Shown here: positions 9,112-43,079 of the stretch, one piece after another
Numbering within the stretch: the first letter of the stretch is position 1
Layout of the letters: every line of letters begins with the position of its first letter
Source of the DNA: Thermoleophilaceae bacterium
Lineage (GTDB): Bacteria; Actinomycetota; Thermoleophilia; Solirubrobacterales; Thermoleophilaceae
Reading direction: 5' to 3'
Assembly (NCBI GenBank): GCA_040901445.1
Contig: JBBDYQ010000008.1
Span: forward strand, 1 to 44,123
DNA length: 44,123 bases
Made by a program: the position numbers and the translations under genes
The notes under the pieces: generated by a model
Told to the model about the DNA's origin: nothing
The model's database searches: none
Seen by the model: the letters and a program-made list of their open reading frames with translations, nothing else

Positions 9112-9912
9112 TCATGTGGTGGGGGGTCGGCGTCGCTTCTTCGCCGTTTGGGTGAGGCCGTGGCGGAAGCGCCAGGACTCGTTGCCGGTGTCGATGATGT
9201 GGGCGCGGTGGGTGAGGCGGTCGACGACGGCCTTGGCGAGGCGGGGGTCGGGGAAGACCTTGGTCCACTCGCCGAAGGGCAGGTTGGTGGTGACGATCAG
9301 CGAGCCGCGTTCGTGGCGCTCGGAGAGGACTTGGAAGACGAGCTCGGCGGCGCCGTCGGGGAGCGCGAGGTAGCCGAGCTCGTCGAGCACGACGAGCTCG
9401 GTGCGGGCGTAGCGGCCGACCACTCTGGCCAGCTCGCGGCGGCCCTCGGCCTCTTGGAGCTCGTTCGCGAGCGCGGCGAGCGTGGTGAAGCGGACGCGGC
9501 GGCCCTGGTGGCAGGCGCAGACGGCGAGCGCGGTGGCGAGCATCGTCTTGCCGGTGCCGGAGTCGCCGATGAAGATGATGCTCTCGCGGTCGTCGATCCA
9601 GGAGCCCTCGGCGAGCGCGGCGAGCGTGGCCTGGGGGACCTTCGGGTTGTCGGCGAAGCGGAAGTCCTCGAGGCGCTTGATCTGCGGGAAGCGCGCGTCG
9701 ATCAGGCGGCGCTCGCGGCGCTCGGCGCGCTCGGCCATCTCGGCCTCCAAGAGCGCGGCGAGGTAGGCGACCGGCGTCTGCTGCTCGCGCGTCGCCTCGG
9801 CGGCGAGCTGGCGGAAGCGGCGGCGGACGGTCGGGAGCTTGAGCTCGACCGCGTGCGCGTCGATCAACGCCTCCAGCGCCGCGGTCTTCGCGTTCTTGGG
9901 CGTGGTGGTCAT
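9112..9912 (-). CDS. istB: IS21-family helper ATPase IstB
   Basis: This 266-residue AAA+ ATPase assists IstA in target selection. Walker A is GDSGTGKT (about residues 116-123) and Walker B is LVVLDELGYLAL (about 173-184). The sensor region SLIVTTNLPFGEW (about 204-216) is also present, all in the usual order and at full length. The ATG at 9912 overlaps the istA stop by 4 nt (ATGA). The gene looks intact. A second, different and truncated istB lies at 43645-44100. Confidence 0.93.
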   Translation of the reverse strand: MTTTPKNAKTAALEALIDAHAVELKLPTVRRRFRQLAAEATREQQTPVAYLAALLEAEMAERAERRERRLIDARFPQIKRLEDFRFADNPKVPQATLAALAEGSWIDDRESIIFIGDSGTGKTMLATALAVCACHQGRRVRFTTLAALANELQEAEGRRELARVVGRYARTELVVLDELGYLALPDGAAELVFQVLSERHERGSLIVTTNLPFGEWTKVFPDPRLAKAVVDRLTHRAHIIDTGNESWRFRHGLTQTAKKRRRPPTT

Positions 9913-11445
9913 CGGGATCCTCCGAGCAGCTGGTCGTAGTCGGTCAGGTCGGGCGCCGGCCGCCCGTGGGCGGCGAGGCGCGGCTGCAGATCGCTCAGCG
10001 GCGCCGGGGCGGTCTGCGCCGTCTTCGCGCGGCGGGCCAGCACCGCGACGGCGCGGCCGTCATGAGCGCCGGCCGCCAGCGCGCCGCGGACCGCCAGCGC
10101 GACGCGGTCGGGCCCGTGGTCGCGGCAGAGCATCAAGACGTCGACCATCTGCCTGGCCGCCTCCGAGCGCCCATAGCGTCCAGTGAGCGCCGCCCACAGC
10201 TCGTCGAACGCCTGCGGCCAGGCGCCGCGCTCGCGCTCTTGGGCCAGCGGCAGCGAGTGCTCGAGGTCGCCGGGCTTGCGCTGAAGCAGCTCGAGGTAGT
10301 GATCGAGCTGCGCGCTGGTGCCGAAGCGCCCATGCAGCCGCTCGTGGCGCGCGACCATCTGGCCGCCGTGGCTGATCGTGATCTCACGCGCGCCGACCCT
10401 CGCGCCGACGCGCAGCCCGGCCAGCGCGACCGGCACCGAGTAGCGGTTCTGGCGGACCGTGACCAGCGACTTCGCATCAACGCGCGGAGTCGCCGTCTCT
10501 GAGGCGTCGAACGGCTCGCCGGGCAGCGCCCGCAGCAGCGGCCGCTCGCGCGTCCACGCCTCGCCGACCGTCTCGGTCCGCCCGACGATCCGCCGACCCA
10601 AGTCTGCTTCGCAGCCGGCGAGGATCATCGCGTTGAGCTCCGCGAGGCTCGCGACCGCCGGGACGGGGACCAAGTGGTTGCGCCGGAAGCGGCCGACCTC
10701 GCCCTCGACGCCGCCCTTCTCGTGCGCGCCCTGGATGCCCGGCGTCGTGAACTCAGAGGCGAACAGGTAGTGCGAGCGCAACGCGACGAAGCGGTCGGTC
10801 TCCACCCGCCGGCGGCCCTTGAGGACCGTCTTGACCGCCGAAGTCAGGTTGTCGAAGCGGACACGCTCGAACGTCCCGCCGAACCAGTCGAACGCCTCGA
10901 CATGCAACTCGAGGAACGCCTGCTGCGTCTGCACCAGCGACGCCTGACAGAACGCCGCGCCCGAGAACGAGGCGCGCATGAAGAACAAGTGGACCCGCGT
11001 GCGCACCCCCGCCAGATCCACCTGCGCCTCACCCCAGTCGACCTCGGCCCCGATGCCCGGCGCGTGCGCCTGCGGGACGGACACCTCCGCGACCGCCCAG
11101 CCCAGCTGGCGCTTGCGCTGACGCACGTAATCCCGCACCGTCGTCTCCGCGACCTCAGCGCCGTGCTCGTCGACCAGCCGCCCAGATCCGCTTGGCCGTG
11201 TGGCGCTGCTTGCGCGGCGCCTCCCGATCCCCCTCAAGCCACGCGTCGATCAGCGGCCGATACGCACCCAGCTTCGGCGCCGGCCTGCTCGCCGGCGAGC
11301 GCTTGGCCGGCGGCACCGCCGAAGCCAACGCCCGCCTGACCGCCCGCCGATGCACCCCATGGCGCTCCGCCAACGCCCGGATCGAGAGCCCCTCCCGATC
11401 GCGATCCCTCCTGATCTGCTCGAACAGCTCCACCCTGGATCCCAT
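9909..11445 (-). pseudogene. istA: IS21-family transposase IstA, frameshifted
   Basis: The N-terminal part (from ATG 11445) has the helix-turn-helix expected of IstA (IRALAERHGVHRRAVRRAL). It then runs out of frame just after TAKRIW near 11178. The rest resumes in another frame at RLVDEHGAEVAETTVRDYV and continues to 9909. It carries the DDE-type integrase core with EVDWGEAQVDL, FDNLTSAVK and a later Glu region (GAHEKGGVEGEVGRFRRN). One extra base, or two missing bases, explains the shift. Programmed frameshifting is not typical of this family, so I call it inactivated, unless it is a sequencing error. Confidence 0.85.
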
Positions 11446-13184: not shown

Positions 13185-14789
13185 TCACCTTTCGTCTGCG
13201 GCGTCGGCCTCTGCGCGCACCCGGCGCCGGTCAACCTTGCCCTGCCCGGTCGCCGGCAGCTCGGCCATTACGTATACCTGCTGCGGATACTTGTACGGAG
13301 CAAGTTCCGCCTTCGCGAATCGACGCAGCTCGTCCGCGAGATCGTCGGACCTGCGCGACGACGCTGGCGCCGCGACGACATACGCGACGATCTCCCGCAG
13401 CCCGTCTTCGTGCTCGTGCGCGAAGACCGCGCACTCCGCGACGTCGGGGTGACCCTCGAGACAGCCCTGGACCTCGTGGGGAGAGACGAATCGACCCGCG
13501 ACCTTCACGAGGTCGTCTGCGCGGCCGCAGAACCAGAAATTCCCGTCCTCGTCCTCCCGGAAGAGGTCGCTCGTCCGTATCCAGCCGTCGCCGACGAACG
13601 TCGCGCGGCTGGCGTCGTAGTTCTTCCAGTAGAGCAGTCCGGACCCCTCGCTGCAGATTCGCAGCAAGCCGATCTCGCCGGGCGCGACGTCCCGCCCGGT
13701 CCCGGAATCCACGAGTCGCGTCTTGACACCGACGTTCGGCCGTACGCTCCCGGGCGCCTGTGCACCTCCGACGTTCCCAAAGAGCACTACGCCGCCGGTC
13801 TCGGTCGACCCGAGCAGGTTCAACACTTCGACGCCGAACCTCTCGACCCAGCGGACATGGAGCTCGGCCGAGAGGTGCTCCCCCGACGACGTGCAGATGC
13901 GCAGCGACGAGAGGTCCTCGTCCCCGACCTCGTCGAGCATCCGCCGCATCATGGTCGGGACATTGACGAGCACGCTGGGCCGGTAGCGCGTCGTCAAGTC
14001 CAGGATCCTCCGTACACTCGGCCGTTCGGGATAGAGGACGACCGAGGCGCCGACGCGGAACGCAAGCACCACGCCCCATAGGCGGGCATAGCCGAAGAAC
14101 AGCTTCGGGACGGGAAGGATGACATCGCTCGCCGTGTAGTTCGCGAAGCGCTGCAGGCTGTCGAAGGCGGCGACGGCGGTCCCGTGTCGGTGCGGCACGA
14201 TCTTCGGCGCGCCGGTCGTCCCGGCGGAGAACAACAGGTACGCGAAGTCGTCCCTGGTCGTGGGCCAGGGCGACGCCGTCGCGCTGCTCTGCTCGAGGAG
14301 GTCGTTGTACGAGTGCTCCCGACCGCGGAGCCGTGAACGCTGGGCGTCCAGAACGAGGATCGCGCTCGGGTACTCGAGACCCTCGGCTGCGGTCCGAATC
14401 TTCTCGACGGTATCGTCGTCGGCGACGACGACCTTCGGCCGCAGCGTTACCAGCAGGTCCCTGACCTCGCGCGCGCCGATGTACGTATACGCCTCGGAGG
14501 TGATCGCACCCTTCTTCACCGTTGCGAACCAGGTGGCGATGAAGTGAGGAGAGTCGCGGAGGAACATGAACACGCGATCCTCCGGCCGCACGCCCGCCTC
14601 CTCGAGGACGTTCGCGGCGCGGTTGACGAGGCCGACGAGACGCTCGAACGTGTAGACCTCGTCGCCGTAGCGGATCGCTATCGCGCCGCCGCGGCCCGCA
14701 AGGACGTTCTGCTCGAGGAAGTACTCACTGATATTAAGGGGAGCACGGGGCTCAGGGAACTCCGACAGCAGGGATGGCGCCGCCGTCAC
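13185..14789 (-). CDS. Benzoate-CoA-ligase-like AMP-dependent acyl-CoA synthetase
   Basis: This 534-residue acyl/aryl-CoA ligase activates a carboxylate through an acyl-AMP to its CoA thioester. The ATP-loop motif LLFSAGTTGAPKIVPH lies near residues 187-202. The adenine/substrate segment NLLGSTETGGV is near 327, the hinge region TSDLFREDEDGNFWFCGR near 410, and the catalytic Lys in TGQGKVDRRR near the C-terminus. The overall pattern (LPVPKLFFGYAR, NVPTMM) resembles benzoate-CoA ligases. It overlaps the hyuB stop by 4 nt (ATGA), so it is co-translated with a ketone-carboxylase-like pair. In acetophenone degradation, a carboxylase is followed by a benzoylacetate-CoA ligase in the same way. The substrate is inferred only from context. 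Confidence 0.92.
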   Translation of the reverse strand: MTAAPSLLSEFPEPRAPLNISEYFLEQNVLAGRGGAIAIRYGDEVYTFERLVGLVNRAANVLEEAGVRPEDRVFMFLRDSPHFIATWFATVKKGAITSEAYTYIGAREVRDLLVTLRPKVVVADDDTVEKIRTAAEGLEYPSAILVLDAQRSRLRGREHSYNDLLEQSSATASPWPTTRDDFAYLLFSAGTTGAPKIVPHRHGTAVAAFDSLQRFANYTASDVILPVPKLFFGYARLWGVVLAFRVGASVVLYPERPSVRRILDLTTRYRPSVLVNVPTMMRRMLDEVGDEDLSSLRICTSSGEHLSAELHVRWVERFGVEVLNLLGSTETGGVVLFGNVGGAQAPGSVRPNVGVKTRLVDSGTGRDVAPGEIGLLRICSEGSGLLYWKNYDASRATFVGDGWIRTSDLFREDEDGNFWFCGRADDLVKVAGRFVSPHEVQGCLEGHPDVAECAVFAHEHEDGLREIVAYVVAAPASSRRSDDLADELRRFAKAELAPYKYPQQVYVMAELPATGQGKVDRRRVRAEADAADER

Positions 14790-31728: not shown

Positions 31729-32246
31729 CTGACGGCGCGGCGCTTGGGCGTGGCCGCCGCGCCATCTGTCGAGCCGTGGGCGCCTCCGGCCGGGGTCGCT
31801 GGCGAGTAGATTTCGAGCGGCTCCCTTGCTACGAGAAAGTCCGCCGTGCCGTGCGCTACGCGCACGCCGTCTTGGTTGAACGTGCCCATCGCGAAGCGCG
31901 CGAAGCCGCGCTTGTCCGACTTCGTAAGCCGCTTGGTCTCCAAGGTGATCTCGGTGTAGATCGTGTCGCCCACGAACACCGGCGCCTCAAGCGTATAGCT
32001 GCCGCCCAGCTGGCCCTGGCTGGTCGCGCGGAGCACATCCGCGAACCCCGTGACCATCAGCGCATGCACGAGCTCTCCGTGCGCGACGCGGCGCTTGAAC
32101 GGGCCGACCCGCGTGGAGTACTCGTCGCTAAGGTGCGAGGGGTGGAGGTTCCCGATCAGGCCTCCGAGCAGCACGACATGTGCGTCCGTGACGGTGAGGG
32201 GGGCGCCCGCGAAGTGGAACCCGGAATCGAGCTCGTCGTAGGTCAC
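31725..32246 (-). CDS. MaoC-like hotdog protein, copy 2
   Basis: This 173-residue paralogue of the protein at 26799-27296 shares long identical runs such as VLLGGLIGNLHPSHL and YTLEAPVFVGDTIYTEI. Again the hydratase Asp is Asn (GNLHPSH), while the His is kept. Both copies end in IYSPATPAG, and here about 15 extra residues follow. I use GTG 32246, which overlaps the LLM oxidoreductase stop as GTGA. The frame continues upstream without a better start. It is the second gene of the operon 33271-29291. Since both copies share the substitution, it is likely to be functional rather than decay. Confidence 0.9.
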   Translation of the reverse strand: MTYDELDSGFHFAGAPLTVTDAHVVLLGGLIGNLHPSHLSDEYSTRVGPFKRRVAHGELVHALMVTGFADVLRATSQGQLGGSYTLEAPVFVGDTIYTEITLETKRLTKSDKRGFARFAMGTFNQDGVRVAHGTADFLVAREPLEIYSPATPAGGAHGSTDGAAATPKRRAVS

Positions 32247-33271
32247 GGCTTCCCCAGCCCGGCGGCGCTGGCGCACTCGGCGACCCTCGTGATCGCGGAG
32301 CGGAAGTCGGCTGTCATCTGATCCTTACGCGGAACCGGGTAGATGACCGGATAGATCCCGGCGGCGTCGTAGGCGGCGAGGTGCCGGCTCAGCTTGTCGT
32401 CATCGCCTGCCAGTGTGAGGTCCTCCGCCATCTGGGTCGAGACGAGCTCGACAGCGCCGGCCTGGTCGCCGCGGAGCCAAGCCTCGCGGATGGCGTCCGC
32501 CTCTTCGCCGTAGCCGGCGTCCGCGAGCACCCCGCGGTAGTGCGGGCTCGCCCCGTAGAACGCAACCCGCCGACGCAGCGGCGCGACCGCCTCCGGCGCC
32601 TTCGAATCGGCGGGCGGCGCAAGCGCCAGCGTCGCGACCAGTGGCTCGGCATCTTGTCGCTCGCCAGCGCTCCTCCCTTCCGCGAGCCAGGGCCGGACCT
32701 TGTCCTCAAGCCGGTTGACGGTTAGGAAGTTCGCCAGCACCCCGTCGGCGATCTCGCCCGCGAGCCGGGTCATCTTGGGATTCAGAGCGCCGATGTACAC
32801 CGACACCTCTTCTGCGGCCGGCTCTCGGATGTGGAAGCTGTCGATGGTGAAGAAGTCGCCGTCGTAGGAGACCCGCTCGCCGCGTATCAGCAGACGGACG
32901 ATCTCGACCGCCTCGCGCATACGCACGACGGGGCGCTCCACCGTGACTCCGTGACCCCGAGTCACGAAGCCGGTGCCGCCGAGGCCGACCGTGAGGAAGA
33001 AGCGGCCGCCGGAATAGTTCTGAAGCGTCGCCGAGCTCATCGCGAGCGTCGCCGGTGTGCGCGCGTAGATGCTCGTCAGCCCGGTCCCGATTCGGATCCG
33101 CTCGGTCGCTTGGCCGATGCGGTCGAGCGTCACGAACACGTCCCGGATGTTGTCCTCGGTGAGCCAGAACGCCTCGAATCCGAGGCTTTCGGCCAACTGT
33201 GCGTACTCGACGATGTCGTCCGGGCTCATCCCCGGATTGTTCGCCATGGTCACGCCCATGCGAAAGCTCAT
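32243..33271 (-). CDS. LLM-class F420-dependent oxidoreductase
   Basis: This 342-residue protein has the luciferase-like monooxygenase TIM barrel, of the subgroup resembling methylene-tetrahydromethanopterin reductase and other F420-dependent enzymes. Recognisable segments are the N-terminal strand and YAQLAESLGFEAFWLTED (about 22-39), RIRIGTGLTSIYARTP (about 68-83), SGGRFFLTVGLGGTGFV (about 96-112) and SVYIGALNPKMTRLAGEIADGV near 167. GAGGGC lies 7 nt before ATG 33271. It is the first gene of a four-gene operon with a clear promoter at 33312-33341. F420 supply is plausible because FO synthase is encoded at 40026. FMN use cannot be excluded by reading alone. Confidence 0.88.
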   Translation of the reverse strand: MSFRMGVTMANNPGMSPDDIVEYAQLAESLGFEAFWLTEDNIRDVFVTLDRIGQATERIRIGTGLTSIYARTPATLAMSSATLQNYSGGRFFLTVGLGGTGFVTRGHGVTVERPVVRMREAVEIVRLLIRGERVSYDGDFFTIDSFHIREPAAEEVSVYIGALNPKMTRLAGEIADGVLANFLTVNRLEDKVRPWLAEGRSAGERQDAEPLVATLALAPPADSKAPEAVAPLRRRVAFYGASPHYRGVLADAGYGEEADAIREAWLRGDQAGAVELVSTQMAEDLTLAGDDDKLSRHLAAYDAAGIYPVIYPVPRKDQMTADFRSAITRVAECASAAGLGKP

Positions 33272-33341: not shown

Positions 33342-34271
33342 CTATGAACGGCTGCGCCTCGGCCGCGCGACGGCCACGGAGCTTACGGCTACCGCGTCGA
33401 AATGCCGCTGGGCCGGTTCTGCCAGGGCCTCGTAGACGCCGTGGAAGGTCTCGACCGCGTTGCTCCGGGAGGCCCCATGCATCACGTCCGGCGAAAACTC
33501 GGGGTCCGTCGAGGGAAAGCCCTTGAAGACGTCGCTGATGAGCGTCAGCACGCGGAAGGCGTCACGGTCGTCGAGCCGGCGCTGCACGGCGGGCTCGGCG
33601 TAACGTCCGAAGCTGGATATGAATGCGCGGTAGCGGTCCTCGATCTGCTCGAGATCCCATGCACGCGAGATCAACGATCCGAAATCCAGCGTCTTCGCCG
33701 GCCGGCCGAGGAGGACGCCGGCGTAGTCGGTCGCGCCGAGGTCGATCAGAAGCTGGACCACTTCGCGCTCGCGATCGTGCGGAGAGACCCACGTACCGTC
33801 CTGTACCGGGCCGAAGCCCAAAAAGCGCAGCCGGCGCGCGAGCGCGGCACGCTTCATCCGCTCCTCGTCGGGCATCGAGTGCCATACGACCGTCCAGGTG
33901 TCGCCGGTCGCGCTCTCGGTCCCGAACGAGAAGATCCGCCTGTCACCCTCCGTCATGAGGTGCTCGCCGTCGTTGGTAAGCCGGTAGTGCACGCGCCTAC
34001 CCTCCTTGACCCGTGCCAGGTAGCCGCGCTGGACGAGTCGCCCGAGTGCTACTCGCGCGGCGCCGGATGAGAAGCCGAAGTCAGCCAGCAGCTCGACGAG
34101 GCCGCCGGACCAGACCAGCCTGAAGCCGCGGGCATGGTTTCCGAGGATCGTCAGGACCAGACGCTGCGGCTGAAGAGGGCCCACCGCCTCCAGCAGCTGC
34201 GCGACGCCGGAGTGGCTCGACCGCTCAGTCCGTGGACGCGCCACAGCGGCCTCCCGTCGAAACGGCAACAT
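33342..34271 (-). CDS. PaaX-type transcriptional repressor
   Basis: This 309-residue regulator has an N-terminal winged helix (about 35-100: GGLVELLADFGFSSGAARVALGRLVQRGYL), then GRRVHYRLTNDGEHLMTEG. A central PaaX domain follows (TWTVVWHSMPDEERMKRAALARRL, FLGFGPVQDGTWVSP, about 128-170) and then a C-terminal helical domain. The family prototype represses phenylacetate genes and is released by phenylacetyl-CoA. It lies directly upstream of, and in line with, the operon containing an aryl-CoA ligase. It diverges from the hydrolase/monooxygenase run to the right, so it may control both. Its stop abuts the -35 box of the downstream promoter. The 222-nt divergent spacer contains the palindrome TCAATTGA at 34460-34467. 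Confidence 0.9.
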   Translation of the reverse strand: MLPFRREAAVARPRTERSSHSGVAQLLEAVGPLQPQRLVLTILGNHARGFRLVWSGGLVELLADFGFSSGAARVALGRLVQRGYLARVKEGRRVHYRLTNDGEHLMTEGDRRIFSFGTESATGDTWTVVWHSMPDEERMKRAALARRLRFLGFGPVQDGTWVSPHDREREVVQLLIDLGATDYAGVLLGRPAKTLDFGSLISRAWDLEQIEDRYRAFISSFGRYAEPAVQRRLDDRDAFRVLTLISDVFKGFPSTDPEFSPDVMHGASRSNAVETFHGVYEALAEPAQRHFDAVAVSSVAVARPRRSRS

Positions 34272-34493: not shown

Positions 34494-35342
34494 ATGCCGA
34501 AACCGATTGACCGCACGATCGAAGCCGGCGGAATCGGCACGCACTACCTTGAGGCGGGTAGCGGCCGGCCCGTCGTGCTGCTCCACTCCGGCGAGTTCGG
34601 TGGCTCCGCGCGGCTGAGCTGGGAGCTGGTGATCCGCGGGTTCGCGGTGCACTACCGAGTGCTGGCGCCCGACTGGCTCGGCTACGGGGAGACCGAGAAG
34701 CTCTACGACTTCTCCCGCCGCGGAGCCCGCCGGATCGACCACATCGGTGACTTCCTGGCCGCGCTCGGGATCGAGGAGGCGGCTTTCGTCGGGAACTCGA
34801 TGGGGGGCTCGATCCTCGCCCGCGTCGCGGCCTCCAATTCCCCCGTCTGGCCGATCTCGGCGATCGTGCTCATCTCCGGGGGCGGCTTCGTCCCCGACAA
34901 CCCGGAGCGTCAGACGCTGCTCGACTACGACTGCACCGTCGACGGGATGCGGCGGATGCTGGAGGTCCTGTTCCGCGACCCGCGCTGGGCGGCGGACGAA
35001 GAGTACGTGCGGCGCCGCTACGAGTCGAGCATCGTCCCCGGAGCCTGGGAGTGTGCCGCCGCCGCGCGACTGAGATCTCCATTCCTCGGTCCGCAGCGCG
35101 AGTTCGGCCAGCCGGACACGACGGAGTACGAGTTGATCTCCGTGCCGACGCTGCTGGTCGCTGGCGCCAACGACGTGCTGAGGCTGCCCGGATACGCGGA
35201 TGAGCTCCAGGCGCGGATCCGCGGCTCGCGCCTGCACACGTACGAGGACTGCGGTCACATGCCGAACATCGAGCAGGCACCGCGGCTCGAGACCGATGTC
35301 CTCGACTTCCTGCTTGAGGTCTATCCGCCCACATCGGCTTGA
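34494..35342 (+). CDS. Alpha/beta hydrolase (C-C bond hydrolase-like)
   Basis: This 282-residue alpha/beta hydrolase resembles meta-cleavage product hydrolases and related esterases. An oxyanion-loop LLHSGEFGG follows the first strands (about 29-37). The nucleophile elbow GNSMGGS carries Ser102. The acid is probably Asp227 (AGANDVLRLPGY) and the base His255 (CGHMPNIEQAP). It is the first gene of the plus-strand run and is followed after 76 nt by an FMN-type monooxygenase gene. A hydrolase next to a ring-attacking monooxygenase suggests hydrolysis of a cleavage product or ester. The substrate is unknown. Confidence 0.92.
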   Translation: MPKPIDRTIEAGGIGTHYLEAGSGRPVVLLHSGEFGGSARLSWELVIRGFAVHYRVLAPDWLGYGETEKLYDFSRRGARRIDHIGDFLAALGIEEAAFVGNSMGGSILARVAASNSPVWPISAIVLISGGGFVPDNPERQTLLDYDCTVDGMRRMLEVLFRDPRWAADEEYVRRRYESSIVPGAWECAAAARLRSPFLGPQREFGQPDTTEYELISVPTLLVAGANDVLRLPGYADELQARIRGSRLHTYEDCGHMPNIEQAPRLETDVLDFLLEVYPPTSA

Positions 35343-35418
35343 GGCGGCAGACAAAAGTCACACCGGCTCAGACGAGAGTCACTGCGCACGCCCCAGGTAA
35401 CTGGTGGAGTGCATGCCG

Positions 35419-36597
35419 ATGCGGGCCTGGCACTTCAGCGAGACGGCATATCCCCACCTGCCGGACGAGAGCACATTCGAATCGATACGAGTCACGCTCC
35501 CGAACCAGCTGATGGATCCCGAGCGGGCCGCGGACCTCTGGGACCGCTACCTGCTCGAGTGGCAGGTCGCCGACGAGCTCGGTCTGGGGGTGATGATCAA
35601 CGAGCATCACTCGACGGCGACGTGCATGGACCCGGCCGCGCCGATCGTCGCCGGAGCACTGGCGCGCGAGACCCGTCAGGCGCAGATCCTCATCTTGGGC
35701 AACCCGATCGCGAACCGGCCCGACCCGGTCCGGGTCGCGGAGGAGATGGCGCTCGTGGACGTGCTGTCGCGCGGACGGCTCGAGGTGGGCCTGGTGCGCG
35801 GGGTCCCATTCGAGGTCTCCGCCACCAACAGCGCGCCGGTCCTGATGAACGAGCGCTTCTGGGAGGCACACGACCTGATCAGGAAGGCGTGGACCACGCA
35901 TGACGGCCCGTTCAACTGGCAGGGCCGGTTCTTCGAGCACCGCCAGGTCAACATCTGGCCGCGCCCGTATCAGCAGCCGCACCCCCCGATCTGGATCACC
36001 TCGCTCAGCCCGGGCAGCGCGCGGAAGGTCGCACAGCACGGCTACGTCCTGGCGTCTTTCCTGACTGGATTCGACGGCACGAGGGCGATCTTCGACGCCT
36101 ACCGAGACGAACGAGAACGGCTCGGCCTGGCACCGCCCGCACGCGACCGCTTCGCCTACGCGGCGCTCGTATACACCGGGCGCACCGACGAGGAGGGCAT
36201 CGCCGGCGCACGCAAGCTGATGTGGTACATCAGCGCGAACAAGGTCCCGCCGCAGTTCAAGGATCCCCCGGGCTACATACCCGCCGCCCGGCGCGCGATG
36301 GGCAAGCGCACCGGCCAAGCCCCGCACAGCTTCGAGCAGCTCTCATTCGACGAACTGATAGAGCGCGGGATCGTCTTCGCGGGAAGCCCCACGACGGTCT
36401 ATGACCAGGTGACGCGCTTCTCAGACCACGTCGGAGGGCTCGGCCATCTGCTGATCATGGGCCAGGCCGGGTTCCTCGAGCACGACGAGACCGTCCGCGG
36501 ACTGACGCTCTTCGCAGAGCAGGTGCACCCGCGTCTGCAACAGGCACTCGGCGATGCGGAGACCACGAGTCCTCCGCCGGCCTCGCTGACGACATGA
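35419..36597 (+). CDS. FMN-dependent luciferase-like monooxygenase
   Basis: This protein of about 392 residues is of the bacterial luciferase type and begins MRAWHFSETAYP. GGTGGAG at 35403-35409 is well spaced for ATG 35419; GTG 35404 and ATG 35413 are alternatives. Family marks are LGLGVMINEHHSTA (about 55-68), ILILGNPIANRPDPVRVAEE (about 93-112), SRGRLEVGLVRG (about 118-129), and PPIWITSLSPGSARKVAQHG. A matching flavin reductase is encoded at 38586 in the same run, giving a two-component monooxygenase. It would insert oxygen into an organic substrate using reduced FMN. It differs clearly from the LLM protein at 32243. Confidence 0.9.
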   Translation: MRAWHFSETAYPHLPDESTFESIRVTLPNQLMDPERAADLWDRYLLEWQVADELGLGVMINEHHSTATCMDPAAPIVAGALARETRQAQILILGNPIANRPDPVRVAEEMALVDVLSRGRLEVGLVRGVPFEVSATNSAPVLMNERFWEAHDLIRKAWTTHDGPFNWQGRFFEHRQVNIWPRPYQQPHPPIWITSLSPGSARKVAQHGYVLASFLTGFDGTRAIFDAYRDERERLGLAPPARDRFAYAALVYTGRTDEEGIAGARKLMWYISANKVPPQFKDPPGYIPAARRAMGKRTGQAPHSFEQLSFDELIERGIVFAGSPTTVYDQVTRFSDHVGGLGHLLIMGQAGFLEHDETVRGLTLFAEQVHPRLQQALGDAETTSPPPASLTT

Positions 36598-36691: not shown

Positions 36692-37927
36692 GTGGCCGCC
36701 GTCGTGCTGCCCGCGTTCCTCACAGCGAGCCTCGCCGTCCAAATCCGGCGCGACTTCGAGTTCAGCGACGCCGAGGTCGGGCTCGCGGTCGCCGGCTCCT
36801 ACATCACCGCGGCGGCGGCGTCCTCGCTCGCCGGGCGGCTGGTCGACGGGCGCGGCGCCAGGTCGGCGATTCGTGCCGCAAGTGCCCTCGCCGCGCTCTG
36901 CGCGCTCCTGGTTGCGGGCGTGGTCGACTCGGCGGAGGCGCTGATCTTCGTCCTGCTCCTGGCCGGGCTCGCGAATGCGCTGGCCGCTCCCGGCGTAAGC
37001 GCCTTGATCGGCAACAGCCCGCAGACCGGGCGCCGAGGCATCACACTCGGCATGCAGCAGGCCGGAGCACCCGCGGGCGCACTGCTGGCGGGGCTCGCCT
37101 TGCCGCTGATCGCACTGCCATTCGGGTGGCGCTGGGCATTCGCGGGAGCCGCCGCCCTGTCGCTGGCGGCCGGCGTCGCCGTCCGCAGCGTCCCGAGGGT
37201 GGCAGCGCGCGCTCCGGACGCGTGTGCGGTTCAGCCCCGTCCGCCGCGCCTGGAAGCGGTCCGTCTGCTCGCCTTGGCGGCATGCCTGGCAAACCTCGCC
37301 GCGGCCGGAATGCTGTCGTTTCTCGTCATCTACGCGGTTCAGGGAGGGCTGTCCGAATGGGTGGCCGGGCTGCTCCTCGCCGGATGCAGTCTGGCCGCTG
37401 CGCTGGCGCGCATCTGCTTTGGCGCGCTTGCGGACGCGCGCCCCGGCAGTGCCCTCACGATCGTCTCCTGGCTGCTCGCGCTTGGGGCGATCGGCTACCT
37501 GCTCCTGGCAGCGGGGCAGCCCGCGGCCATCGCCGCCGGCGCGGTCGTGGCCGGTGGCATCGGCTGGGGCTGGCCAGGCCTGATGGTCCTGGCGATCATG
37601 GAGCGCAACCGCGACGCGACCGGCGCGGCCGTCGGAGTCGGGATGACCGGCGTCTACGCCGGCGCCGCCGGCGGGCCGCTCGTCGCCGGGCTCATATCGG
37701 AAGCCGCCTCCTTCAGGACGGCATGGCTCGTGACCGCCGGGCTCGCCCTTTCGGCCGCGGCGCTCGCGGTAACCACGATCAGGATCGACCGAGCGGTAGG
37801 CGCGGAGGGGGGCGACAAAGCTCACAGCGCGACGGACCACGGTCACTGCACCGGCGTTGGAACCCTGGTTGCCTTCGATCCGGAGTCCGGCAGAAGATGC
37901 TCAGATCAAGCGCGACACGAGCGGTAG
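36692..37927 (+). CDS. MFS transporter
   Basis: This major facilitator protein of about 411 residues has some 12 hydrophobic helices in two halves, with a longer polar link near residues 170-190 (VPRVAARAPDACAVQPRPPR). The loop SLAGRLVDGRGARSAIRAAS (about 49-68) is the conserved loop 2-3 motif. The first canonical start is GTG 36692, inside what looks like the first helix. In-frame sequence upstream (AALVGAGLVAAVVLP) is also helix-like, but has only CTG codons before a stop. The C-terminal tail of about 45 residues is unusually long and overlaps the next gene by 31 nt. It probably moves the pathway substrate or a product across the membrane. Confidence 0.85.
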   Translation: MAAVVLPAFLTASLAVQIRRDFEFSDAEVGLAVAGSYITAAAASSLAGRLVDGRGARSAIRAASALAALCALLVAGVVDSAEALIFVLLLAGLANALAAPGVSALIGNSPQTGRRGITLGMQQAGAPAGALLAGLALPLIALPFGWRWAFAGAAALSLAAGVAVRSVPRVAARAPDACAVQPRPPRLEAVRLLALAACLANLAAAGMLSFLVIYAVQGGLSEWVAGLLLAGCSLAAALARICFGALADARPGSALTIVSWLLALGAIGYLLLAAGQPAAIAAGAVVAGGIGWGWPGLMVLAIMERNRDATGAAVGVGMTGVYAGAAGGPLVAGLISEAASFRTAWLVTAGLALSAAALAVTTIRIDRAVGAEGGDKAHSATDHGHCTGVGTLVAFDPESGRRCSDQARHER

Positions 37928-38589
37928 AGACGGCGGCGACTGCGCTGGCGGATGAGCGCATGGTCGTCGTTCTCACCGACCACGCGGGCCAAACGAAGGG
38001 GACGCTGGTGCTAGCGGCCGAACGAGCGCGCCCCGAAGCCATCAACTTCATGGTCACCCACGGCCGCGGAGTGGTCTGCGTGGCGATGGCGGACGCGCGC
38101 CTGGCGGCGCTCGAGCTACCGGCACTGCCGCGCACCGGCCCGGCCCGGTTAGACAGCGCGTTCACCGTCTCGGTCGACCTCCGTGTCGGCACCACGAGCG
38201 GAGTCTCGGCCGCCGACCGCGCGCTGACGGCGCGAGCCCTGGCTGACCCCGCGGGCGTCGCGGCAGACTTCGCGCGGCCCGGGCATGTCTTCCCCTTGCG
38301 AGCCGCCCCCGGTGGCGTTCTCGAGCGCCGCGGATGCGTGGAGGCGGCTGTCGACCTCGCAACGCTGTCGGCGGTGCAGCCGGCCGCCGTCAGCTGCGCG
38401 ATCCTCGCTGACGACGGATCGCTGGCGCAGCTGCCCGACCTGCGGGCGCTGGCGGGCCGCCACCGCTTCCCGGTCGTCAGCGTCGACGACCTCGTCACCC
38501 ACCGGCGGCGGCTCGACGCGCACGCCGCTAGAAGGGGCGCAACGGGGTTCCCGCGCAGCTCGGGGGCGCCCCTCCTGGCGAGGCGATGA
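37897..38589 (+). CDS. RibB-like protein lacking DHBP synthase catalytic residues
   Basis: This 230-residue protein clearly aligns with 3,4-dihydroxy-2-butanone-4-phosphate synthase. INFMVTHGRGVVCVAM, the FTVSVD strand, TTSGVSAADRALTARALAD, RPGHVFPLRA and ILADDGSLAQLPDL are all in order. The catalytic acidic loop (family D-D-x-x-R-E-N-E-G-D) reads LTDHAGQTKGT, so the Arg, both Glu and the last Asp are gone. The metal-binding His in G-H-T-E-A is Cys (RGCVEAAVDL). It should not make the riboflavin precursor in the known way. It starts at ATG 37897 inside the MFS tail and overlaps the flavin reductase by 4 nt. A sugar-phosphate-like or flavin-related role is speculation. Confidence 0.85.
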   Translation: MLRSSATRAVETAATALADERMVVVLTDHAGQTKGTLVLAAERARPEAINFMVTHGRGVVCVAMADARLAALELPALPRTGPARLDSAFTVSVDLRVGTTSGVSAADRALTARALADPAGVAADFARPGHVFPLRAAPGGVLERRGCVEAAVDLATLSAVQPAAVSCAILADDGSLAQLPDLRALAGRHRFPVVSVDDLVTHRRRLDAHAARRGATGFPRSSGAPLLARR

Positions 38590-39098
38590 CCGCTCTCTCC
38601 TACGAGGTCGACGCGACCAGCCTCCGTGCGGCCTGCGCGCGCTTCCCGACCGGAGTGATCGTCGTGACGGCGTGCGACGCCGACGGAGATCCCATCGGGA
38701 TGGCCGTCAACTCGTTCACCTCGGTGTCGCTCGACCCGCCGCTCGTCCTGGTCTGCGCGGGGCGCACATCGGAGACGTGGCCCGCCATCCGTGCCGCCGG
38801 CGACTGCGTCTTGAACGTGCTCGCCGAAGGCCAGGCGAAGTTGGCGCTTCGCTTCGCCTGCAAGGATGATGACCGCTTCGCGTCTGTCACCTACAGCACC
38901 GCCCCGTCGGGGGCTCCGCTGCTCGAGGGCGCGATCGCATGGCTGGAGTGCTCACTCGAGCTCGAGGTGCCCGCGGGAGACCACGTGGTCGCGCTTGCGG
39001 CGGTGCGCAGGACGACCGTCGGGACCGAGTGCGAGCCGTTGGTCTTCCACGATCGCCGCTATGGAGGCTTTCGAGCGCATGAAGGAGCCCTTCGTTGA
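38586..39098 (+). CDS. NAD(P)H:flavin reductase domain protein
   Basis: This 170-residue flavin reductase supplies reduced flavin to a partner monooxygenase. The family core is clear: ACARFPTGVIVVTACDADG (about 15-33), GMAVNSFTSVSLDPPLVLVC (about 38-57), FVLNVLAEGQ-like CVLNVLAEGQAKLALRFA (about 75-92), and DHVVALAAVRRT near 136. ATG 38586 overlaps the RibB-like stop by 4 nt, and its stop overlaps the next start as TTGA. The luciferase-like monooxygenase at 35419 is its most likely partner. Confidence 0.93.
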   Translation: MTALSYEVDATSLRAACARFPTGVIVVTACDADGDPIGMAVNSFTSVSLDPPLVLVCAGRTSETWPAIRAAGDCVLNVLAEGQAKLALRFACKDDDRFASVTYSTAPSGAPLLEGAIAWLECSLELEVPAGDHVVALAAVRRTTVGTECEPLVFHDRRYGGFRAHEGALR

Positions 39099-39871
39099 CC
39101 ACGGTCGAACTGCAGGAGGAGACACCGCTTGAGGTAACCGAGGTCGGGGACGGCAATCCGCTGCTCGTGCTCCACGGCGGCGGAGGCCCTCAGTCGTGCG
39201 CGGCGATTGTAGAGCGGCTCGCCGCCGGCCACCGCGTCCTCGCGCCCACCCACCCCGGCTTCGCGGGGACCGCGCGACCCGACTGGATAGATACCGTCGA
39301 CGACCTCGCCTACCTGTACCTCGATCTGCTCGACCACCACGGTCTCGAGGACGTCACGCTTGTCGGCTGCTCGCTCGGAGGCTGGATCGCAGCCGAAATG
39401 GCGGTGCGCGATCGGGCGAGAATCGGCCGCCTTGTGCTCGTCGATGCTGTCGGAATTCGCGTCGGCGCACGGGACGAACGCGATGTCGTCGACATCTTCG
39501 CGACATCCGCCGAGGAGGTGCGCGAGCTCGCATTTCACGATCCGGCGGCGGGCGAGGTGGATTACGCGTCCATGGACCAGGCCGATGTCGAGGCGCTTCT
39601 CGCCAACGAGGAGGCGCTCGCGCTCTACGCGTGGAGGCCTTATATGCACAACCCGAAGCTTCGCCGCCGTCTTGCGCGCGTAAAGATGCCGACACTTATC
39701 GTATGGGGCGAGAGCGACCGCATCGTCTCTCCTGACTACGGGCGCGCCTTCGCCGCCGCGATCCCGGACGCTCGCTTCGAGCTGCTCGCAGGGGCCGGTC
39801 ATGCGCCGCAGGTAGAGCAACCGGAGGGCCTATGCGAGCTCATCGCGCAATTCGCCTCCCGCGCGGCCTAG
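39095..39871 (+). CDS. Alpha/beta hydrolase, copy 2
   Basis: This 258-residue alpha/beta hydrolase has oxyanion loop VLHGGGGPQS (about 25-34), nucleophile elbow VGCSLGGW with Ser93, an acidic residue in WGESDRIVSP near 208 and a base in GAGHAPQVEQP near 236. It starts at TTG 39095, overlapping the flavin reductase stop, so translation is coupled. It is only distantly similar to the hydrolase at 34494. In two-component monooxygenase operons a small hydrolase often follows the reductase and opens the oxidised product, and this order fits that. The exact substrate is unknown. Confidence 0.92.
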   Translation: MTTVELQEETPLEVTEVGDGNPLLVLHGGGGPQSCAAIVERLAAGHRVLAPTHPGFAGTARPDWIDTVDDLAYLYLDLLDHHGLEDVTLVGCSLGGWIAAEMAVRDRARIGRLVLVDAVGIRVGARDERDVVDIFATSAEEVRELAFHDPAAGEVDYASMDQADVEALLANEEALALYAWRPYMHNPKLRRRLARVKMPTLIVWGESDRIVSPDYGRAFAAAIPDARFELLAGAGHAPQVEQPEGLCELIAQFASRAA

Positions 39872-40025: not shown

Positions 40026-42452
40026 GTGGGCGTGCAACTGACGCCGACTGAGGCCCGTGGCCTCGCCTCGGACCCCCTCCCGCAGGTGCTGGCGGCGGCG
40101 CGGGAGCGGAGGGCGCGCGCGTCGGGCCTGGTCGTAACGTACTCGCCGAAGGTCTTCATCCCGCTGACGCAGCTCTGCCGCGACGTGTGCCATTACTGCA
40201 CCTTCGCCGCGGCGCCCCGGCGCGGGCAGCGCGCTTACATGGATCGAGAAGCCATCCTCTCGATTGCGCGGGCGGGCGCCGAGAGCGGATGCCACGAGGC
40301 GCTTTTCACGCTCGGCGACAAGCCGGAGCTGCGATATAAGGTGGCCCGAGAGGAGCTTGCTGAGCTGGGCTGCGCGAGCACCGTCGAGTACCTCGCGCGG
40401 ATGGCCGAGCTCGTCCTCGAGGAGACCGGGCTGCTTCCGCATGCGAACGCGGGCGCTCTCACCGCGGAGGAGCTGGCGCTGCTGCGCCGGGTCTGCCCCT
40501 CCCAGGGGATCATGCTGGAGAGCTCGGCCGCGCGCTTGGCTTGGCGCGGGGGACCCCACTTCGGCTCACCCGACAAGCGGCCCACGGTGCGGCTGGCGAC
40601 GATCGACGCCGCCGGTGAGCTCGCGATTCCGCTGACGACCGGCATCCTCGTGGGGATCGGTGAGACGCGGGCGGAGCGCATCGACGCCCTGCTGGCGATC
40701 CGCTCGCTGCACGCGCGCCACGGGCACATCCAGGAGGTGCTGGTCCAGAACTTCCGCGCGAAGTCGTCGACGAAGATGGCGGGGTTTCCGGAGCCGTCGC
40801 TGGACGAGCTGCTCTGGACAGCGGCGGTGGCGCGACTCGTGCTGCCGCCCGGCGTCTCGATCCAGGTACCGCCGAATCTCTCGTACGACGAGTTCCCACG
40901 GCTGCTCGATGCCGGCATCGACGACTGGGGCGGGATCTCGCCGGTCACGATCGACCACGTCAACCCCGAGGCGGGCTGGCCGCACGTCGACCGTCTGAGG
41001 GAGGCGACGCGAGCGGCGGGGCTCGAGCTGGTGCCGCGGCTCACGGTACATCCGCGCTATGCGCGCGATCCGGAGCGGTGGCTCGACAAGCGGCTCGTCC
41101 CGCAGGTGCTTCGGTTGACCGATGCCGACGGGCTCGCCCGCAGCGACGGCTGGATCGCCGGCCACAGCGCGAGTCCCCCTGCGGCCGATGGCTCGCCGGC
41201 GCCAGCTGCGACGCGTCGGGACGCGACCTCTCCGGTACGAAGCGCCCTCGACAGCGTCCGCCGAGGCGACCAGCTGGGCGAGGAGGAGCTGTGTGCGCTG
41301 TTCGGCGCTCGAGGGAGCGACCTGGCGGCGGTCGTGGGGGCTGCGGACCGGCTACGACGGGAAGTCTGCGGCGAAGAGGTGACCTACGTCGTCACGCGCA
41401 ACATCAACTACACGAACGTCTGCTACTTCCGATGTGGGTTCTGCGCGTTTTCCAAGGGCAAGCTCGCCCGCAACCTCCGTGGGCAGCCTTACGTGGTGCC
41501 GGTGGAGGAGATAGTGCGCCGCTCGCGTGAAGCCTGGGAGCGCGGCGCGGTCGAGCTGTGCCTGCAGGGAGGCATCCACCCCGGGTTCACCGGCGACTTC
41601 TACCTCGAGGTGCTCGAGGCGGTGAAGAGCGAGCTGCCCGAGCTCCACCTCCATGCGTTTTCGGCGCTGGAGGTCTGGCAGGGAGCTCAGACGCTGAACC
41701 TGTCCCTGGAGGAGTATCAGCGGCGGCTCTTGAGCGCCGGCCTGTCGTCGTTGCCGGGCACGGCGGCCGAGATCCTGGACGACGAGGTGCGCCGGGTGCT
41801 GTGCCCGGACAAGATTCCCACCGACGTCTGGCTGCGCGTGCATGACAGCGCCCACCGACTCGGCCTCAAGTCGACGACGACGGTGATGTTCGGACACATA
41901 GACGGACCGCGCAACTGGGCCCGGCACCTGATCGCGCTGCGCGAGCAGCAGAAGCTCACGGGCGGGTTCACGGAGTTCGTCCCCCTTCCGTTCGTGCACA
42001 TGGAGGCGCCGCTCTACCTGAGGGGCCAGGCGCGCCGCGGACCGACCTTCCGCGAGGCGATCCTGATGCACGCGGTGGGCCGGCTTGCGCTTCATCCGTG
42101 GATCACGAACGTCCAGGCCTCGTGGACAAAGCTGGGCGTCGAAGGGGCCCAGGTGGCCCTGAGGAGTGGCGCCAACGACTTCGGCGGCACCTTGATGAAC
42201 GAGTCGATCTCACGCGCCGCGGGGGCCCGTCACGGGCAGGAGATGCCGCCTGAGCGGATCGAGGCCGCAGTGCGCTCGATTGGGCGGCGTCCACGCCAGC
42301 GGACGACCCTGTACGCGACCCCAGATCCGGAGCGCGTACGCCTCTCACATGGGGCGCCGCCGCTGCGCGAGCCGGTGCAGCTGCGCGCCGAGGAGGCGGG
42401 GCTGCGCCGCCCGGCGAAGCTCCTCAGGTCGGCCGTGCCTGCAGGCGGCTGA
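40026..42452 (+). CDS. fbiC: FO synthase, fused CofG-CofH (F420 biosynthesis)
   Basis: This 808-residue bifunctional radical SAM enzyme makes 7,8-didemethyl-8-hydroxy-5-deazariboflavin (FO) from tyrosine and 5-amino-6-ribitylaminouracil, the chromophore step of F420 biosynthesis. The CofG half carries CRDVCHYC (Cys51, Cys55, Cys58). The CofH half carries CYFRCGFC (Cys466, Cys470, Cys473). The linker near 385-420 is Ala/Pro-rich. Both halves look complete (ETGLLPHANAG; LCLQGGIHPGF; LPGTAAEILDDEVR). The start is probably GTG 40026, with weak signals. It is unusual here, between catabolic genes, and may support F420-dependent enzymes of this island such as the LLM protein at 32243. Confidence 0.95.
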   Translation: MGVQLTPTEARGLASDPLPQVLAAARERRARASGLVVTYSPKVFIPLTQLCRDVCHYCTFAAAPRRGQRAYMDREAILSIARAGAESGCHEALFTLGDKPELRYKVAREELAELGCASTVEYLARMAELVLEETGLLPHANAGALTAEELALLRRVCPSQGIMLESSAARLAWRGGPHFGSPDKRPTVRLATIDAAGELAIPLTTGILVGIGETRAERIDALLAIRSLHARHGHIQEVLVQNFRAKSSTKMAGFPEPSLDELLWTAAVARLVLPPGVSIQVPPNLSYDEFPRLLDAGIDDWGGISPVTIDHVNPEAGWPHVDRLREATRAAGLELVPRLTVHPRYARDPERWLDKRLVPQVLRLTDADGLARSDGWIAGHSASPPAADGSPAPAATRRDATSPVRSALDSVRRGDQLGEEELCALFGARGSDLAAVVGAADRLRREVCGEEVTYVVTRNINYTNVCYFRCGFCAFSKGKLARNLRGQPYVVPVEEIVRRSREAWERGAVELCLQGGIHPGFTGDFYLEVLEAVKSELPELHLHAFSALEVWQGAQTLNLSLEEYQRRLLSAGLSSLPGTAAEILDDEVRRVLCPDKIPTDVWLRVHDSAHRLGLKSTTTVMFGHIDGPRNWARHLIALREQQKLTGGFTEFVPLPFVHMEAPLYLRGQARRGPTFREAILMHAVGRLALHPWITNVQASWTKLGVEGAQVALRSGANDFGGTLMNESISRAAGARHGQEMPPERIEAAVRSIGRRPRQRTTLYATPDPERVRLSHGAPPLREPVQLRAEEAGLRRPAKLLRSAVPAGG

Positions 42453-42455
42453 CGC

Positions 42456-43079
42456 ATGCTGCTCGAGGCTGAGCGTCACCTCGTTGCCCGCTACGGCGCG
42501 CGCATGTGGCGCGAGGGCCTCGTCACGGGTACCTACGGGAACATCAGCGTCTGCACCGGTGGCCGCATAGCGATCACTCCTACCGACATGCGGTACGGTG
42601 GGATGAAGCCCGCCGACGTCTGCGTCGTCGACCTGGCCGGCACTCAGATGGACGGTGGCGCGCGGCCCTCTTCGGAGCTTCGGATGCACGTGCTGCTGCA
42701 CGGCAGAGAGGGCGACGGCGCCATCGTCCATACGCATTCCCACTACGCGACGGCACTCGGCTGCGTGGTCGACGAGATCCCCGCGCTGCACTACGCGGTC
42801 GCCGAGTTCGGCGGGCCGATCCCGACGGTCCCCTACGAGCCTGCGGGGTCGGCCGACCTGGCCGAGCGGGTGCACGCAGCACTGGCGGACCGGGCTGGCG
42901 TGCTGTTGCAGAGTCATGGCGCGGTCACGATCGGCGCCTCTCTGCGGCAGGCCTACGCGCGGGCCGTGACGCTCGAATGGGTCGCGCGGATCTATCACCA
43001 CGCGCGGATGATCGGAGAGCCCCGGCGGTTGGAGGAGGCGCGCTTCGCGCAGCTCCCGCGGCGGAGTGCTACACCTTGA
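42456..43079 (+). CDS. Class II aldolase/adducin family protein
   Basis: This 207-residue zinc-dependent aldolase is of the fuculose-phosphate/ribulose-phosphate epimerase class. The phosphate-binding TGTYGNIS (about 24-31), acidic catalytic SSELRMH (about 72-78), zinc ligands HTHSHYATAL (about 92-101) and the third His in LQSHGAVTIG (about 150-159) are all present, so it should be active. It begins 3 nt after the fbiC stop and is surely co-transcribed. It could split an aldol product of the pathway. A link to F420 side-chain supply, as proposed for the fuculose-1-phosphate aldolase in methanogens, is possible but unproven in actinobacteria. Confidence 0.93.
   Translation: MLLEAERHLVARYGARMWREGLVTGTYGNISVCTGGRIAITPTDMRYGGMKPADVCVVDLAGTQMDGGARPSSELRMHVLLHGREGDGAIVHTHSHYATALGCVVDEIPALHYAVAEFGGPIPTVPYEPAGSADLAERVHAALADRAGVLLQSHGAVTIGASLRQAYARAVTLEWVARIYHHARMIGEPRRLEEARFAQLPRRSATP

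Follow-up and report, generated by a model that had tools for sequence, protein, structure and literature searches.

The RibB-like gene at 37897-38589 (+) of a contig from a Thermoleophilaceae bacterium (JBBDYQ010000008.1) encodes a protein that has the predicted fold of DHBP synthase and appears to have lost the active site of that enzyme. The protein could well be a RibB pseudoenzyme that descended from an accessory RibBA and was kept as a non-catalytic structural partner of the flavin reductase encoded next to it; we infer both the partnership and its exact role, and give this reading about an even chance of being right. The stretch of DNA analysed, 44,123 nucleotides in its whole length, is referred to as the window, and copies of RibB that have lost the catalytic set are referred to as dead.

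Fold and active-site residues of the RibB-like protein

The ORF is translated without interruption into 230 aa, and the PF00926 (DHBP_synthase) profile matches the product over 190/191 positions (210 bits, E = 2.7e-62). PF00926 is the sole domain detected and the protein stops without a C-terminal GTP cyclohydrolase II domain, so that by domain content it is not a bifunctional RibBA. Its score against TIGR00506 (ribB equivalog), 170.9 bits, falls just below the cut-off of 177.45 bits. Solved RibB proteins match it down to E = 3e-48, and the AlphaFold model, with 37 homologues in the alignment, has a mean pLDDT of 87. All of the significant PDB matches to this model (47/47) are RibB/DHBPS structures, with query TM-scores of 0.70-0.85 against RibB structures; with the profile match, the model allows a predicted RibB fold to be assigned with confidence.

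The residues were compared with solved RibBs and 204 intact homologues, and are numbered by alignment according to E. coli RibB. Near-invariant across the 204 intact homologues are R37, E38, E40, D42, T154, and E174, positions with catalytic roles in RibB. In the RibB-like protein, the acidic loop RENEGD has become GQTKGT, RxGHTEA has become RRGCVEA, and ICEI has become SCAI. The replacements claimed in the earlier note (R37G, E38Q, E40K, D42T, and H153C) were borne out by this alignment, which adds T154V, E174A, D33T, M182L, and R184Q. The last three are losses at near-invariant sites that were not used to define the dead class, and are therefore a separate pointer to the same active-site loss. 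Gln occupies the H153 position in many otherwise intact Thermoleophilia RibBAs (canonical examples L004-L030), which means that the diagnosis has to rest on the combined loss of the catalytic residues rather than on this site by itself. Judged from its sequence, the protein lacks the set expected of a DHBP synthase (acidic loop R-E-x-E-x-D, metal His/Gln, T154, and E174). The motif RPGHVFPL, including H136, is present as had been claimed; the ribulose-phosphate-binding part, also said to be kept, is so in the GVSAADR segment and H136 and not at T154. An intact RibBA with all catalytic residues is encoded elsewhere in the same genome (G000:C25:360836), and hence DHBP synthase activity is not required from the RibB-like copy.

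Operon and gene neighbourhood

The stop of the RibB-like gene and the start of the flavin reductase gene share the ATGA at 38586-38589, a 4-nt overlap, and the start of the RibB-like gene overlaps the upstream MFS gene [Table 1]. The intact frame, the 4-nt coupling, and more generally a RibB-fold protein that lacks the DHBP synthase active site and shares its operon with flavin-dependent enzymes, all described in the earlier note, are supported by our analysis.

Table 1. Features located in the window
Feature	Coordinates	Strand	Basis
IS21-like transposase/ATP-binding helper pair, near left part of catabolic region	9112..11237	-	judged from ORF sequences
F420-type LLM oxidoreductase, divergent operon	32243..33271	-	profile match
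PaaX-family regulator between divergent operons	33342..34271	-	profile match
Alpha/beta hydrolase	34494..35342	+	profile match
Luciferase-like monooxygenase (LLM, PF00296)	35404..36597	+	profile match
MFS transporter, overlaps RibB-like gene start by 31 nt	36692..37927	+	profile match
Putative RibB-like pseudoenzyme, 230 aa, DHBP synthase fold	37897..38589	+	translation, PF00926, alignments, AlphaFold model
Flavin reductase, PF01613, best NCBIfam match HsaB/FerA type	38586..39098	+	profile matches; ATGA overlap with RibB-like gene
Alpha/beta hydrolase, PcaD/HsaD-like, overlaps flavin reductase end	39095..39871	+	profile match
Second FO synthase CofGH (FbiC)	40026..42452	+	profile match
Class II aldolase family, fuculose/ribulose-1-phosphate aldolase-like	42456..43079	+	profile match

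An LLM monooxygenase, a flavin reductase, and a RibB(A)-like gene are clustered in the window as in lux and mel2, and the same content was found in L240, L251, L253, and L255. No acyl reductase/synthetase genes (LuxC/LuxE, MelK) were found in the scan of the genes flanking the RibB-like gene; AMP-ligases are encoded at 13185 and 29291, on the strand opposite to the RibB-like gene. The divergent operon also encodes a MaoC-like protein, a creatininase-family protein, and an AMP-ligase. A cluster on a plasmid of Azospirillum oryzae (L253, 123-10240) carries creatininase, LLM, enoyl-CoA hydratase, AMP-ligase, RibB, flavin reductase, and MFS genes, almost the gene content of the window, and the two likely share a catabolic pathway. 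Gene sets much like that of the window are also present on a plasmid of M. branderi (LLM, hydrolases, flavin reductase, and RibBA) and on plasmid pRHL3 of R. jostii RHA1, which carries CofGH, LLM, and flavin reductase genes together with a RibBA that has Leu at H153 (missing from the gene table). The other CofGH copy of the genome under study lies at G000:C25:182993, and the presence of CofGH in both the window operon and pRHL3 suggests that cofactor-supply genes travel with such operons.

Dead RibB copies and their link to flavin reductases

No ortholog of the RibB-like protein with more than 52% identity was found in 232 genomes of the order, 31 of the family, 299 of the class, and 396 of the phylum, nor, among the matches listed, in a scan of genome contigs; the closest matches listed (up to 52% identity) are canonical RibBs. 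A clade of true orthologs sharing the substitutions was rejected on these grounds. We then considered degenerate paralogs from 31 Thermoleophilia genomes with more than one RibB copy, from fusion-based searches, and from plasmids. There were 17 degenerate copies in the 31 multi-copy genomes and 26 in total including that of the window, i.e., 25 others. The majority are RibBA-like, with a second domain that is also degenerate in many, and stand-alone dead RibB domains resembling the window protein are L069, L237, L238, L239, and L245. In the RibBA-like copies L064-L068, L071-L073, L092, L093, L244, and L246, the GTP cyclohydrolase II half is truncated or without the Cys-rich zinc motif. The distinct clade sharing the substitutions, for which the earlier note had proposed to look, is not supported: degenerate homologues with a flavin reductase neighbour do occur in several bacterial groups, but the same substitutions do not recur. 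The exact set is unique to the window and each catalytic position varies among the other dead copies, so that the substitutions are not conserved among homologues.

In five Thermoleophilia genomes (L207, L208, L209, L210, and L211), a single reading frame encodes a dead RibB at the N-terminus followed by a flavin reductase domain; PF01613 was confirmed by profile for two of the five. The dead stand-alone RibB of L069 adjoins a flavin reductase with a 4-nt overlap as in the window, and that of Thioclava (L238) has a 4-nt overlap with the reductase gene coming first. A flavin reductase likewise adjoins the dead stand-alone RibBs of R. ruber (L237), R. pyridinivorans (L239), and Rhodococcus L245. 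The window gene, with its catalytic set lost and a flavin reductase adjacent, belongs to this group. In the 31 multi-copy genomes, a flavin reductase was fused or within 300 bp on the same strand in 10/17 dead vs. 3/49 intact copies (odds ratio 22, Fisher p = 1.8e-5, copies from related genomes being not fully independent), and 7/17 dead copies had no same-strand flavin reductase within 300 bp. As the intact side of this comparison pooled housekeeping with accessory copies, while the dead copies were accessory, the test cannot say that dead copies adjoin reductases more than intact accessory copies do. Intact accessory RibBAs adjoining flavin reductases are common on catabolic plasmids. The plasmid examples came from a RibB-flavin reductase query, so that their adjacency gives no independent statistic. 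Outside Thermoleophilia, no RibB-flavin reductase fusion was found in 396 evenly drawn genomes of the phylum at E <= 1e-62, an insensitive cut-off.

Selection and phylogeny of the dead copies

We estimated dN/dS (NG86) of the dead RibB domain in close pairs of relatives, the window gene being without a close relative for such a test and the L209/L210 pair being left out as saturated. The values were 0.14 (L207/L208), 0.38 (L209/L211), 0.07 (L071/L073), and 0.30 (L066/L067), none with a bootstrap upper limit above 0.56; the rest of each protein had a dN/dS similar to that of its dead domain. The dead domain is under purifying selection in all four pairs. In L071/L073 and L066/L067, the RibB and GTP cyclohydrolase II halves are both under purifying selection. 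As a group, the dead copies lose window positions 27, 45, 61, 87-90, 148, 176, and 178 (not used to classify) and keep G58, L72, TGxSAxDRAxT, and PGH, a pattern which is indicative of selective retention rather than uniform decay.

In the trees (FastTree, and IQ-TREE in fast mode with SH-aLRT), dead copies nest among intact RibBAs at five or more separate points, and several of these intact RibBAs are flavin-reductase-adjacent. L102 groups with L087 (SH-aLRT 98), L093 with L247 (90), and the Rhodococcus dead group lies inside flavin-reductase-adjacent RibBAs (97). The window protein, on a long branch, falls with L065, L068, and L086 inside a clade holding intact copies (92), and two fused pairs form one clade with L069 and L238 (98). 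Going by these trees, catalytic loss would have arisen at least five times, with the exact deep placements uncertain because of long branches.

Alternative explanations

Conceivably, an accessory RibBA or RibB once taken on to supply flavin became redundant and now persists as a decaying relic through translational coupling to the downstream flavin reductase. The window protein is indeed a singleton on a long branch without orthologs in the order, both of its neighbours overlap the gene, which makes deletion costly, the catalytic residues vary among dead copies, and the dN/dS of one pair (L209/L211) is fairly high. We nevertheless consider decay rather unlikely, as the RibB-like frame is intact, retention recurs after at least five losses, the fusions keep the dead domain at their N-terminus, and purifying selection on that domain in the four pairs of relatives is as strong as in the rest of the protein.

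The earlier note proposed a neofunctionalised enzyme or a flavin/sugar-phosphate-binding protein, and took the Cys at the metal position as a hint of different chemistry. In the case of an enzyme, the old pocket would hold a newly formed active site, perhaps one that uses this Cys, and would act on a sugar phosphate or a pathway intermediate. This is in keeping with the retention of SAADR and of RPGHVFPL with H136, and with an operon that encodes several enzymes of an unassigned pathway. Yet among the compared copies Cys at the H153 position was found in the window protein alone, for which it was rejected as a conserved new catalytic residue; in the other dead copies this position is taken by H, R, L, P, A, or a different residue and no new motif is shared, and Thr154 and the acidic residues are also gone. 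Dead copies moreover stem from several independent losses, and substitutions that differ between lineages speak for a structural role and against one new chemistry common to all of them. We regard such an enzyme as quite unlikely, and a non-catalytic partner of flavin reductase is the better supported of the two. Improbable to a like degree is a ligand-binding protein, in which the former ribulose-phosphate pocket would bind FMN/FAD by its ribityl-phosphate part, or else a flavin precursor, and so serve the reductase as flavin carrier or sensor. The association with flavin reductases speaks for it, as does the fact that most dead copies keep H136 and the GISAxDR segment (77-100% per site), whereas the remaining former substrate- and metal-site positions are without conservation among them. 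That the protein still works as a DHBP synthase despite its unusual residues, raising flavin supply as intact accessory copies in the same kind of neighbourhood probably do (L061, L251, L253, and L255), is very hard to credit even with Gln at the His site of otherwise canonical copies, since H153, all four acidic-loop residues, T154, and E174 are replaced, the last six being essentially invariant in the intact homologues.

A non-catalytic role is the best explanation of the repeated catalytic loss, the kept fold, the coupling or fusion to the reductase, and the purifying selection taken together. The ancestor of the putative structural partner would have been an accessory RibBA of the kind that accompanies flavin reductases and monooxygenases of the luciferase-like or HsaA type, and it probably provided flavin precursor for the operon. 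Catalysis would then have been lost and the folded domain retained for a structural service to the co-translated flavin reductase; as candidate roles, it might dock, stabilise, or oligomerise the reductase, or hold flavin between the latter and the monooxygenase. For dead RibB domains at large, we suggest tentatively, giving it rather less than an even chance, that they are a recurrent, selected, non-catalytic subunit of two-component flavin monooxygenases, docking the reductase or holding flavin, which evolved repeatedly from accessory RibBAs and was sometimes fused.

Comparison with known systems

The nearest described system is the mel2 locus of Mycobacterium marinum, with FMN reductase-like and DHBPS/GTP cyclohydrolase II genes, the LLM MelF, and the hydrolase MelH (PMC1793995). 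Like the window, it has an LLM monooxygenase, an alpha/beta hydrolase, a flavin reductase, and a RibB(A)-like gene in one cluster. MelJ has DHBPS and GTP cyclohydrolase II domains (PMC1793995), whereas the window protein is a RibB domain alone, with its active site apparently lost. Mel2 also differs in its acyl-protein synthetase-like MelK, as none was identified beside the RibB-like gene of the window. The lux operon differs from the window in having a reductase, LuxG, of a type other than PF01613, a LuxH that is regarded as a working DHBP synthase, and fatty-acid reductase genes, which the window operon lacks. Compared with mel2 in the literature, lux resembles the window in combining a RibB homologue (LuxH) with a flavin reductase (LuxG) and a luciferase-family oxygenase (LuxAB) (PMC1793995).

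In the ipp cluster of Rhodococcus sp. D-6, the 214-aa RibB-like orf2560 lies between the monooxygenase IppA1 and the reductase IppA2 and is induced 4.46 log2-fold along with the ipp pathway (PMC12442392). As in the window, a stand-alone RibB-like gene adjoins the reductase of a two-component flavin monooxygenase; the ipp oxygenase belongs to group D, in contrast to the LLM of the window. Plant RIBA3 is a DHBPS-dead RIBA (PMC3509567) and mycobacterial RibA1 is unable to replace RibA2 (PMC11302143); both, like the window protein, are RibBA-family paralogs kept after loss of an activity; RIBA3 keeps GTP cyclohydrolase II activity, unlike the window protein, which is without a RibA domain. RibBA paralogs with lost activity (RIBA3, RibA1) and RibB(A) beside flavin reductases (mel2, ipp) are thus already known. 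The recurring combination, a dead RibB adjoining or fused to a flavin reductase, turned up nowhere in the open literature searched, which excludes most subscription journals.

Implications

Several of the dead proteins carry the annotation DHBP synthase, and a pathway reconstruction that relied on it would be led astray. For accessory ribB/ribBA genes beside flavin reductases, extra flavin supply is the natural explanation, and dead copies that are under selection and fused to reductases indicate that flavin supply is not the whole story. If dead domains are a selected monooxygenase component, the intact accessory RibB(A) proteins in lux, mel2, and catabolic operons may also have a non-enzymatic role. 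In essence, a dead RibB and a flavin reductase point to a testable protein partnership, which could bear on the delivery of reduced flavin to monooxygenases in pollutant degradation, in bioluminescence-like systems, and in mycobacterial mel2.
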